NCBI RefSeq assembly: GCF_900215655.1
Contig: NZ_OBEN01000003.1
Span: 62,001 to 126,000 of the forward strand
From: Hydrogenobacter hydrogenophilus
Lineage (GTDB): Bacteria > Aquificota > Aquificia > Aquificales > Aquificaceae
DNA length: 64,000 nucleotides
Reading direction: 5' to 3'
Made by a program: the position numbers and the translations under genes. This document shows positions 7,736 through 10,730 of the stretch, piece by piece (position 1 is the stretch's first letter; each line of letters starts with the position of its first letter). The notes beneath the pieces are model-generated. The model worked only from the letters and a program-made list of their open reading frames with translations. It was not told the origin of the DNA and searched no databases.

Positions 7736-8941
7736 TCACTTCCTGAACCTCCGTAGGATTCCTACCGCAGGCACCAAAAGCCACGCAAGAGCATTTAAGG
7801 GACTTGCACCATAAGACACAGAACATCCACCACCACCTCCACCAGAAGAGGCTGTGCTACCGCCAGAGCTTCCACCAGTGGGTGGCTGAGGCTGTGTGGG
7901 TGGCTGAGGTTGTGTGGGTGGCTGTGTCTGGGTTTGCTGGACGCCTTCTCCCGTTATGTACATCCTCACAGGGTAGGGTGTGTTGTAGTAAACCTCAAGG
8001 TATGCCTCTTTTTTGCCTACGCTCTTGGGCTGGAAGATGATACCCACCGTGCAGTAGCCCGCAAGGTTAAATTGCGTGGTCCCACAGGGCCTTTCTCCCG
8101 CATTCAAATCAAGTATGAAGTTTTGTTCTTGGGTTTGCGTGGGCGTAAGAGAGCTCGCTTGAGCGTTAGATTTAAGAGATGACAAGCCAGTAAGTGTGCT
8201 TCTGAACTCTCTTATCTGTATGCCACTTATGAAGATGAGCGACTGGCTCTCTATCTTTACTATAGCAGGACCCTTTGTGGTGAGCACTGGCACTTGCTTG
8301 AAGTCTATGCCCCTTAGGTCTCCAAACTGGGGTGAGGTGATGTGGGATAAGCTTGGTTGAGGTGGTGGAGCACTGCCTCCTGCAGATGCTGTGCATATAG
8401 CAAACTCTCCTACTGCAAAGCCACCTGCTCCTGGGTCGCAGTTTATGGTTATGGAGTTTATGTTTGGAGAAGCAGATACAAAGGCAAAACCTCTGGCACC
8501 TGAATTTCCGTTAATAGGCACAGGACCAGAATTATCCCCAGCATTGGTGGAAACAGTGCAGTTATAAAACCCAAAAGCGTCTGGTTCTACATACAGCATA
8601 AATCCATAAACCGCCGGCGCTATGTTTAGCGTAAGGCTGGACGCTCCCCTCGTGGAGAAAACTGGACCCGTATAACCATGAGACCAGGTAGCCCAGAATA
8701 CAGGAACAGTGAGTTTTTCAACTGCGGGAGATGTAGTTAGGTTATAGCCAGCTGGTGCACCGGGTATTGTGGATACTAAAGTAAAATCTGGTATGGCGGC
8801 CTGAGCGGATAGGTTAAAGGGTATAAAGGTGCAACCCCCTACACTGGTGGGTGGTGCGGAGGTCCCAAGGTCGTAGTAGGTAGCCCAAGACGCTCCTACC
8901 GCACTCAGAGCAAATGTCAGACCGAGCGCAAGCCTTCTCAT
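7736..8941 (-). CDS. Secreted Ser/Thr/Pro-rich protein with a Gly6-Cys C-terminal sorting-type tail
   Basis: 401 residues. A signal peptide (MRRLALGLTFALSAVGASWA) precedes a beta-rich ectodomain with few charged residues. Near residue 345 there is a spacer of PPTQPQ-type repeats and a GGSSGGS stretch. The end is GGGGGGC, a hydrophobic helix (LNALAWLLVPAVGIL) and RRFRK. A Gly run plus Cys, a membrane helix and a basic end resembles sorting tails of the JDVT-CTERM/GlyGly-CTERM kind, where the tail is processed and the protein anchored at the surface. No matching sorting protease lies nearby. The function of the ectodomain is unknown to me. It overlaps the 120-residue gene as ATGA and ends at a strong terminator. 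Confidence 0.75.
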   Translation of the reverse strand: MRRLALGLTFALSAVGASWATYYDLGTSAPPTSVGGCTFIPFNLSAQAAIPDFTLVSTIPGAPAGYNLTTSPAVEKLTVPVFWATWSHGYTGPVFSTRGASSLTLNIAPAVYGFMLYVEPDAFGFYNCTVSTNAGDNSGPVPINGNSGARGFAFVSASPNINSITINCDPGAGGFAVGEFAICTASAGGSAPPPQPSLSHITSPQFGDLRGIDFKQVPVLTTKGPAIVKIESQSLIFISGIQIREFRSTLTGLSSLKSNAQASSLTPTQTQEQNFILDLNAGERPCGTTQFNLAGYCTVGIIFQPKSVGKKEAYLEVYYNTPYPVRMYITGEGVQQTQTQPPTQPQPPTQPQPPTGGSSGGSTASSGGGGGGCSVSYGASPLNALAWLLVPAVGILRRFRK

Positions 8942-9300
8942 GCTTCCACCTCCTTACATTCTTTTTTAAACATCTCACAAAGAACTTCTACGCCCAAACG
9001 CACAAGAAGAGAGATGATGCCAAACACCACCAAAAGCGGAAGACCCAAGGAAGAACGCAAAAAGCCTACTACTATTCCTAAGGCTTCCTTTAGTTCTTTA
9101 CCTACAGATATCTCTTTGCAGAAAACCTTCAGGATAGGGCATTTGTTTTCTTCCCAGAAACTTTTGCCTTCCTCCTCTTCCTGCGCGCGCATAAGGCGGA
9201 CTTTCCTTTTTGCAGAAAGCCCCATGCCTATGAGCTCAAAGGCTTGTCTCTCATCAAGCCCCATCTCAAGGGCTTCCTCTACGATTTGCTGTGCTTGCAT
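8938..9300 (-). CDS. Small membrane protein of unknown function
   Basis: 120 residues from the ATG at 9300, which is preceded by GGGAGGTAAG. The first ~50 residues are helical and charged (QQIVEEALEMGLDERQAFELIGMG, broken here as two helices) and resemble a short UBA/CUE-like helical hairpin. A basic/acidic linker follows, then one or two hydrophobic helices (GIVVGFLRSSLGLPLLVVFGI region, residues ~77-105) and a Cys-containing charged tail. It is translationally coupled to the secreted protein gene, so it may help export, anchor or regulate that protein (inference). I do not recognise a family. Confidence 0.65.
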   Translation of the reverse strand: MQAQQIVEEALEMGLDERQAFELIGMGLSAKRKVRLMRAQEEEEGKSFWEENKCPILKVFCKEISVGKELKEALGIVVGFLRSSLGLPLLVVFGIISLLVRLGVEVLCEMFKKECKEVEA

Positions 9301-9331: not shown

Positions 9332-9360
9332 ATCCTATTCTTTTCCCTCTTGCCTGTCAA
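9332..9360 (-). promoter_or_regulatory. Promoter of the small-membrane-protein/secreted-protein operon
   Basis: On the minus strand TTGACA (9360-9355), a 17-base spacer and TAGGAT (9337-9332). The predicted start is about 25 bases before the ATG at 9300, leaving room for GGGAGG. It is one of the best consensus matches in the window. Confidence 0.65.
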
Positions 9361-9415
9361 GTCGCACCCTTGTAGTAATTTTGTCGCATTATCTGCGCTA
9401 CAAACTTGACTACAA
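9357..9415. promoter_or_regulatory. Nested inverted and direct repeats, candidate operator
   Basis: TCAAGT (9357-9362) and TTGTAG (9370-9375) are mirrored by CTACAA (9398-9403) and ACTTGA (9404-9409). CTACAA is repeated directly at 9410-9415, and GTCGCA occurs twice (9361-9366, 9383-9388). The array abuts the -35 hexamer of the divergent secreted-protein promoter and lies upstream of the LuxR-tailed membrane protein gene. This is what a binding site of that regulator could look like. Operator function is inferred. Confidence 0.45.
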
Positions 9416-9488: not shown

Positions 9489-10730
9489 ATGGGTACTTTT
9501 GCTCTGGGAGGCTTTGTGCTTTGGTTGGTGTCTTTTCCTATGGCTGGCTTTCTGCTGGATAGGGTTCAGCTTATGCCATACTTTCTTCTGGCTCACATAG
9601 TAGGATTACTAACCTGCTTTTTGCTTGACAGAAAGATACTCCTTTTTGCTATACCTCTCACTGCGGTGGTTGCTCTCTTTACTGCGGTTTATCCTTATGT
9701 AGGTTCAAAGGAGTACCTCCTTATACTCATTGGCTTTATGTCCGCTTTTACCGCTACCTACACGGGCTTTTTGATAAGCTCGCAGGGTAGTATAAATAGT
9801 TTTTTTGGGCTTGCACTTGGAAATGTAGGCTCACTTTTTATTTCTTTCTTTCCTGTTGAGAAAACCTTTAAGTATCTGCTCTCCGCAGTGTCCTTAGTTG
9901 CAGTCATGTACAGTCCAAAACAGGTTCCTCAGGCGGATAAATCCTTACATTCTCTATACAGGATGCTTCCTTACTTTTTGGTCTTTTATGCCACTGGCGG
10001 GCTCATGTACAAAGGGGTTTTGGAGTTTTACGCACAGGTGTCTTATCTGCATGGTCTGGAAGTAATCTTTTACGCAATGGGGGTTTTGGTATCTTACAAA
10101 TTGCTCAGCCTTTTGGGCGAGAAGGCTCTCGTGGCGGTTTCTGCTTTTTTGAATGCTACCGCATACGCACTTCTTCAGATGGGAGGGGTGCATCTTTTGA
10201 ACCTTTCTATGTTTTTGCTTCAGGCTGGATTTGGCTTTGCGGACTTTTTGCTTCTTTTCACTCTCTATAATATAAAAGATACTATAAGGGCTTTTTCCCT
10301 TGGCTTTGCTACGGTATGTGTGGGTATAGTTCTTGGCTACTATGCGGGCATGCTAAAAGACTACGCCGAGTTTTTCACTGGACTTGGTAGTCTTATGTTA
10401 GTGGCTTCTTTGGTGTATTACTTCTCTACGGAGAAAGTGCCTAAAGAGGTGTCTGAAAGATTGCCTCAAGAACCATCAGATCAAGAGGAGGTTTCTGCAG
10501 AGAAGTTTCTTAACCACCTACAGAACAGTCTCCACAAAAAGCTCAGCCCCAGAGAGTTTGAAGTTTTACTCCATCTTCTGGAAGGTTGCGACTATGAGAA
10601 TATATCCCAGAAAATGGGTCTCTCTACCTCCAGCGTAAGAGAGTACACAAGAAGGGCTCTTCTTAAACTTGAGATGGATAGGGAAAGCCTCATAAGTATG
10701 TATAAAGACTGGATGCATCAGTATGCGTAA
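9489..10730 (+). CDS. Polytopic membrane protein (MFS-like) fused to a LuxR-type HTH domain
   Basis: 413 residues from the ATG at 9489. Residues ~1-315 hold ten to twelve hydrophobic helices with short loops, resembling a major facilitator. After an acidic linker (residues ~318-345, QEPSDQEEVSAE) comes a C-terminal GerE/LuxR HTH: KLSPREFEVLLHLLEG, then ISQKMGLSTSSVREYTRRAL, the layout of the NarL/FixJ helix-turn-helix with its S-x-R-E-x-E/V-V motif. This makes it a membrane-embedded transcription factor that may sense a transported or bound ligand directly. The closest architecture I know is the MFS-LuxR proteins common in some Actinobacteria. The divergent operon and the repeat array between them are the obvious target (inference). 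Confidence 0.75.
   Translation: MGTFALGGFVLWLVSFPMAGFLLDRVQLMPYFLLAHIVGLLTCFLLDRKILLFAIPLTAVVALFTAVYPYVGSKEYLLILIGFMSAFTATYTGFLISSQGSINSFFGLALGNVGSLFISFFPVEKTFKYLLSAVSLVAVMYSPKQVPQADKSLHSLYRMLPYFLVFYATGGLMYKGVLEFYAQVSYLHGLEVIFYAMGVLVSYKLLSLLGEKALVAVSAFLNATAYALLQMGGVHLLNLSMFLLQAGFGFADFLLLFTLYNIKDTIRAFSLGFATVCVGIVLGYYAGMLKDYAEFFTGLGSLMLVASLVYYFSTEKVPKEVSERLPQEPSDQEEVSAEKFLNHLQNSLHKKLSPREFEVLLHLLEGCDYENISQKMGLSTSSVREYTRRALLKLEMDRESLISMYKDWMHQYA

Follow-up and report, generated by a model that had tools for sequence, protein, structure and literature searches.

The 64,000-nucleotide stretch analysed here from the genome of the hot-spring bacterium Hydrogenobacter hydrogenophilus (the window; contig NZ_OBEN01000003.1, positions 62,001–126,000 of the forward strand) encodes a regulator in which a transporter-like membrane domain is fused to a GerE/LuxR DNA-binding domain. 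We consider it fairly likely that this protein is a membrane-embedded one-component receptor-activator, gated by a ligand, which would act through a single dedicated operator to switch on a divergently transcribed surface-protein unit. Sequence comparison indicates that a candidate operator array and the divergent gene for a surface protein travel with the regulator gene in several bacterial phyla. What we infer is that the protein binds DNA, that it activates and does not repress, that it dimerises and senses a ligand, and that transport has been lost.

Table 1. Features of the regulator locus and its divergent unit (positions within the window).
Feature	Position	Strand	Basis
Receptor gene, MFS-fold domain plus GerE/LuxR DNA-binding domain, 413 aa	9489–10730	+	ORF, Pfam, AlphaFold, Foldseek, VIA-align
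Twelve-helix MFS-fold domain, aa 1–315	9489–10433	+	AlphaFold model; VIA-align Z 30.2 to MelB 9oli_A, 318 residues
Disordered acidic linker, aa 316–336	10434–10496	+	pLDDT <50 at 316–333
Helical DNA-binding domain, aa 337–413; GerE match aa 351–396	10497–10727	+	Pfam, AlphaFold
Candidate operator, tandem 11-bp steps: AAGTCGCA (9359), TGTAG (9371), TGTCGCA (9382)	9359–9388	+	sole three-element match in the window's genome
Two inverted half-sites: GCTACAA 9397–9403, ACTACAA 9409–9415	9397–9415	−	read from sequence; weaker
Divergent sigma70 promoter: −35 TTGACA (9360–9355), 17-bp spacer, −10 TAGGAT (9337–9332)	9332–9360	−	read from sequence
First divergent gene, 120 aa, C-terminal hydrophobic segment, ATG 9300 chosen by eye	8938–9300	−	ORF; no Pfam family
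Presumed target, 401-aa exported protein, Gly/Cys, hydrophobic and Arg-rich C-terminal sorting tail	7736–8941	−	ORF, tail, partner in G004

The preliminary description, made from the sequence, had proposed a transporter-like membrane protein of about ten MFS-type helices that carries an acidic linker and a complete NarL-type HTH of its own, and had named failure of the C-terminal segment to match GerE profiles as the refuting outcome. The frame opens with the ATG at 9489, its stop ends at 10730, and the C-terminus matches GerE (PF00196) at 29.9 bits, above the cut-off of 23.5; Sigma70_r4_2, a helix-turn-helix family related to GerE, scores slightly higher there (35.5 bits). GerE was also matched in all 14 aligned relatives (E ≤ 0.01). 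The AlphaFold model, built with these 14 relatives in the alignment, has a mean pLDDT of 87.1 and a pTM of 0.72. It contains 12 membrane helices up to residue 314, counting H26–70 as two, so that the helix number is corrected from about ten to twelve; its only stretch below pLDDT 50, residues 316–333, is the acidic linker. MelB and other MFS-type transporters were the top matches among those listed by Foldseek against the PDB, and VIA-align placed the model on MelB with an rmsd of 3.0 (Table 1), while a Pfam search of the membrane part gave no MFS family at E ≤ 1. Based on the model, we are confident that the membrane part belongs to the MFS fold. The entire architecture is kept in homologues of about 23–47% identity; the fusion is therefore not a chance event, and an annotation artefact is ruled out in the same way.

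By architecture, the nearest described kind is that of the 10–12-TM LuxR regulators of Coriobacteriia, which include DadR, CadR, and HcdR of Eggerthella lenta and are defined by 10–12 N-terminal TM helices and a C-terminal pfam00196 domain (PMC9734109). In Eggerthella lenta, DadR activates its neighbour gene, a form without the TM part did not activate, and DadR may regulate itself (PMC9734109). The protein described here falls within this definition, having 12 N-terminal helices in the model and a C-terminal GerE domain. It would share with the DadR type one-protein sensing and an adjacent controlled gene, here assigned from adjacency and promoter geometry. It differs from what is described there in that one gene per genome is usual, as opposed to dozens in Coriobacteriia; the partners are surface proteins instead of metabolic enzymes; and the operator array and conserved membrane residues are shared across phyla. 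An MFS-type receptor also governs GerE-type regulation in the UhpC-UhpB-UhpA system, but there the task is divided among three proteins, including a kinase, whereas here it is fused into one. CadC and ToxR are likewise membrane-tethered transcription factors without a phosphorelay, in which a single membrane helix is combined with a periplasmic sensor and a winged HTH at the N-terminus (PMC5936718); with 12 helices and a C-terminal GerE domain, a ToxR-type regulator is ruled out.

The region suggested earlier for binding of the HTH, 9357–9415, coincides with the footprint of the putative half-sites found here, which follow one another at 11–12 bp or at whole numbers of helical turns in the divergent intergenic region. 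A comparison of upstream regions across phyla revealed an AAGTC element followed by half-sites with a GTC core, which take the form TGTCRCA in most Aquificota; Nitrospirota and many of the Desulfobacterota have TGTCAAC or TGTAAAC instead. A match to AAGT[CT][AG] N5-8 [TC]GT[CA][AG] occurs in the 300 bases before the regulator gene in 26 of 32 loci, as compared with 14 matches in 722,788 nt elsewhere in the same loci (about 0.006 per 300 bases), counts that are post hoc, since the pattern was chosen after viewing the loci, and that come from loci sharing ancestry. Among the six loci without a match (L045, L046, L070, L105, L099, L111), L070 and L105 carry variants recognised by eye; L046 and L111 have no array or no clear one. 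No array was found in the 205 bases available upstream of L099 before the contig end. This homologue, from genome G374, stops before the HTH, and the next 250 bases contain no visible HTH remnant. A preset rule applied to eight held-out loci matched three, or four with the corrected start of L132, in a small set whose matched loci are related to those already viewed, none being phylogenetically independent; the misses were L136, whose array looked partial by eye, L137 and L138, with other half-sites, and L139, a broken gene. In a tally made without a shuffled control, the 68 half-site steps below 40 bp in 21 loci comprised 46 of 10–12 bp, 12 of 19–24 bp, and 3 of 32–33 bp, and this clustering suggests that the half-sites face one side of the helix.

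In the window, the divergent −35 box is fused to the first half-site, with AAGTC on the opposite strand running into it. Similar promoters recur in the 24 loci left when two near copies are removed from the 26 array-positive ones: a divergent −35 with at least four of the six TTGACA letters was present in 15 of 24, against 5% at random positions, or about 26% on our own estimate once the fixed TT is taken into account (p = 2 × 10−4), and a −10 box at 15–19 bp in 12 of 24, against 9.5% at random (p = 5 × 10−7). A good −35 is missing in most Desulfobacterota loci. In genome G046, a 771-aa surface gene precedes the regulator, and it is this gene's promoter that keeps the array with GCGACTTGACA; the arrangement suggests the surface gene as the target.

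On this basis, we propose that the MFS-fold domain no longer transports, or does not only transport, and that its central cavity would bind a ligand. The flexible linker would relay the resulting change to the GerE domain in the cytoplasm, probably via altered pairing of two or more proteins; the GerE domains would then align on the helically phased half-sites at 9359–9415, contact RNA polymerase at the fused −35 box, and activate the divergent surface-protein unit (7736–9300, minus strand). The array precedes the start of the regulator as well, and self-control is probable. The alternative of a repressor, which would bind the array and mainly block both promoters until the ligand releases it, seems unlikely to us. 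It would agree with the overlap of half-sites and the divergent −35 box and with the Nitrospirota loci, where the array extends to within a few bases of the regulator start; on the other hand, an activator would be needed at the Desulfobacterota promoters whose −35 is poor, and tandem sites that lie upstream and abut the −35 box are a usual arrangement of activators. DadR, of the same architecture, activates its neighbour and needs its TM part to do so (PMC9734109), which also speaks for a ligand-gated activator.

Across 35 aligned rows, W12, N112, Y174, Y181, E191, Y195, Q245, and D252, all polar or aromatic and located in or beside membrane helices, are at least 89% conserved, as are the HTH residues E356, S379, S381, V383, R389, and K393. 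In the recognition helix, S381, V383, R389, and K393 are present in 94–97% of the rows, a conservation matching that of the GTC core. That a putative pocket and the recognition helix are both shared would agree with a ligand common to the family and with the common GTC core. The complete 12-helix MFS fold and the conserved polar residues in its helices would also suit an active MFS transporter whose own flux is signalled to the HTH. We regard such a bifunctional protein as improbable, in view of the lack of a Pfam MFS match mentioned above and of neighbours that are mostly surface proteins and rarely metabolic. An exception is a genus (g3; L009–L011, L047) in which the regulator immediately precedes, on the same strand, aconitase and malate-dehydrogenase-like genes, this aconitase being a homologue of the one encoded in the window.

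As judged from the sequences, what the array presumably controls is in most cases a gene for a surface or secreted protein and, in one clade, a curli operon. A home-made signal predictor called 16 of 27 divergent neighbours exported, as against 82 of the loci's 300 other genes (p = 0.0015); the 27 derive from 35 loci, two of which have no left gene and six a left gene on the same strand. Non-surface divergent neighbours (L010 of g3, L043, L044, and L058) were fabD-like, uracil-DNA-glycosylase-like, or other by eye. Neither the 120-aa nor the 401-aa neighbour in the window matched a Pfam family. A 399-aa protein beside the regulator in G004 is 68% identical to the 401-aa protein, and both end in a tail of the form GGGGCS..ASPxNxLxWLL..RRxRR, which also occurs in an 891-aa lipoprotein (G070) and, more loosely, in G046. 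Against the MYXO-CTERM model TIGR03901 (cut-off 20 bits), the window's protein scored 14.6 bits and its relatives 18.1 and 19.4 bits, all below the cut-off; the tail of the G046 partner matched nothing. The window's genome apparently contains three proteins with MYXO-CTERM-like tails (7736–8941; G000:C11:18444-18695; G000:C1:320296-320538), just below the cut-off where scored.

In Nitrospirota and others, the partners are Cys-poly-Gly lipoproteins, and additional partners include proteins with PKD, Ig-like, carboxypeptidase-regulatory, or BNR domains and a trypsin-FHA protein. In L137 (G947) and L138 (G945), the divergent unit begins with a CsgD-like gene followed by curlin, CsgE, CsgF, and CsgG genes; this curli operon is complete, with two curlin-repeat genes (identified by a Pfam run on L137 and read from the locus in L138). 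CsgD itself is a soluble protein of the GerE type, in contrast to the membrane-embedded regulator described here, next to which L137 has its separate CsgD-like gene. The likeness lies in the tie to surface fibres in this one clade, CsgD being the curli regulator (PMC3521004).

At the genome scale, the three-element form of the array is specific to the regulator locus. The form AAGTCGCA N2-6 TGTMR N4-8 TGTMR gave five matches in 136 Aquificota genomes, all directly before the regulator (G000, G003, G004, G070, and G071), and none in the 124 genomes without the full-length gene; the exact form is missing in 7 of the 12 carriers, and the reversed pattern, used as a control, gave one match in the 136 genomes. 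For the pair TGTCRCA N3-7 TGTCRCA, a search of 16 genomes found 10 matches, spread over four carriers and each located on the contig that bears the regulator; two of these lie at a contig edge some 5 kb away from the gene. A narrower three-repeat pattern with the wrong spacing matched no array and hit five other places in two genomes. That the array consists of mobile or minisatellite-like repeats, or is the operator of another regulator, and stands there by chance is very improbable: related tandem heptamers do lie at the G003 contig edge about 5 kb away and the held-out test succeeded only in part, but the same GTC core and phasing recur across phyla at about 23–47% protein identity, the three-element form occurs nowhere else in the 136 genomes, and L099, which lacks the HTH, has no array in its 205 upstream bases. 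The G003 copies (G003:C36:1-32) comprise more tandem TGTCACA and are situated past a PP2C-like and kinase-like gene cluster.

Full-length relatives occur sporadically across Aquificota, Nitrospirota, and Desulfobacterota. They were found in 12 of 136 Aquificota genomes, the window's own included (a tally of 48 also counts HTH-only matches); in 6 of 395 genomes from the phylum to which a Thermodesulfovibrio MAG belongs, the relative in G374 lacking the HTH, and in 14 of 395 from the phylum of Desulfatitalea, two of which are weak or partial; in one sampled class, 10 of 41 genomes had relatives. In Chloroflexota, to which an Anaerolineaceae MAG is assigned, the genome of the query itself was the sole positive one of 301, and a plasmid search gave no match. 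The preliminary description had also called a one-protein membrane sensor unexpected in this lineage, and the data agree: among 64 genomes of the window's family, GerE was matched at E ≤ 0.001 in 18 and above the cut-off in 13, and 11 of these 13 owe the match to this protein, so that such a regulator is foreign to the family's usual repertoire.

In a tree of 39 rows, with long branches for L111, L046, and L107, the window groups with G004 and L058 beside other Aquificaceae; its clade also includes the two curli-linked Desulfobacterota rows, and the g3 Aquificaceae are placed apart. A single clade of nine Aquificota rows and L058, with the outlier L046 left out, was rejected (AU test, p = 0.006), and with it the making of the fusion within Aquificota. 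This indicates that the fusion was probably transferred ready-made between lineages. Overall, the architecture noted at first has held up, and of the two origins then considered possible, transfer is favoured by the Nitrospirota and Desulfobacterota relatives and the AU test, independent fusion inside Aquificota finding no support. Tentatively, and with more doubt than for the mechanism in the window, the whole could be a module for surface programmes that moves horizontally, in which an MFS-fold receptor would sense one common small molecule in all three phyla by means of a conserved pocket (N112, Y174, Y181, Y195, Q245, and D252). Via one dedicated, helically phased operator, it would switch on the adjacent surface layer, be it sorted surface proteins, poly-Gly lipoproteins, or curli, much as a CsgD would if it detected its own signal within the membrane.

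When a transporter fold itself acts as the sensor of a transcription factor, the route from an outside signal to a gene becomes very short, and among the literature found such a sensor design has been worked out only in gut Coriobacteriia. The open literature that we searched held no description of regulators of this design outside that class. Thus, the design is known from Coriobacteriia, while the occurrence of the family in deep-branching thermophiles and their relatives appears to be new, together with its one dedicated operator and its link with surface proteins. With an operator visible in the sequence, apparently one target, and conserved membrane residues, sensing, signalling through the linker, and promoter activation are testable in one small system, which also hints at how biofilm and surface proteins may be controlled in bacteria without a known regulator of this kind.

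Several individual loci deserve a remark. L058 is a 4.5-kb contig in a 'Bathyarchaeota' MAG, with a relative of the window's gene at 47% identity and the array present, and is probably a stray, mis-binned Aquificaceae contig. L062, from an 'Anaerolineaceae' MAG, is almost identical to L072 of Desulfatitalea, and one of the two may be mis-binned. The curli-bearing genome G947 contains a second copy of the regulator (L139; G947:C7), which is split into two frames.
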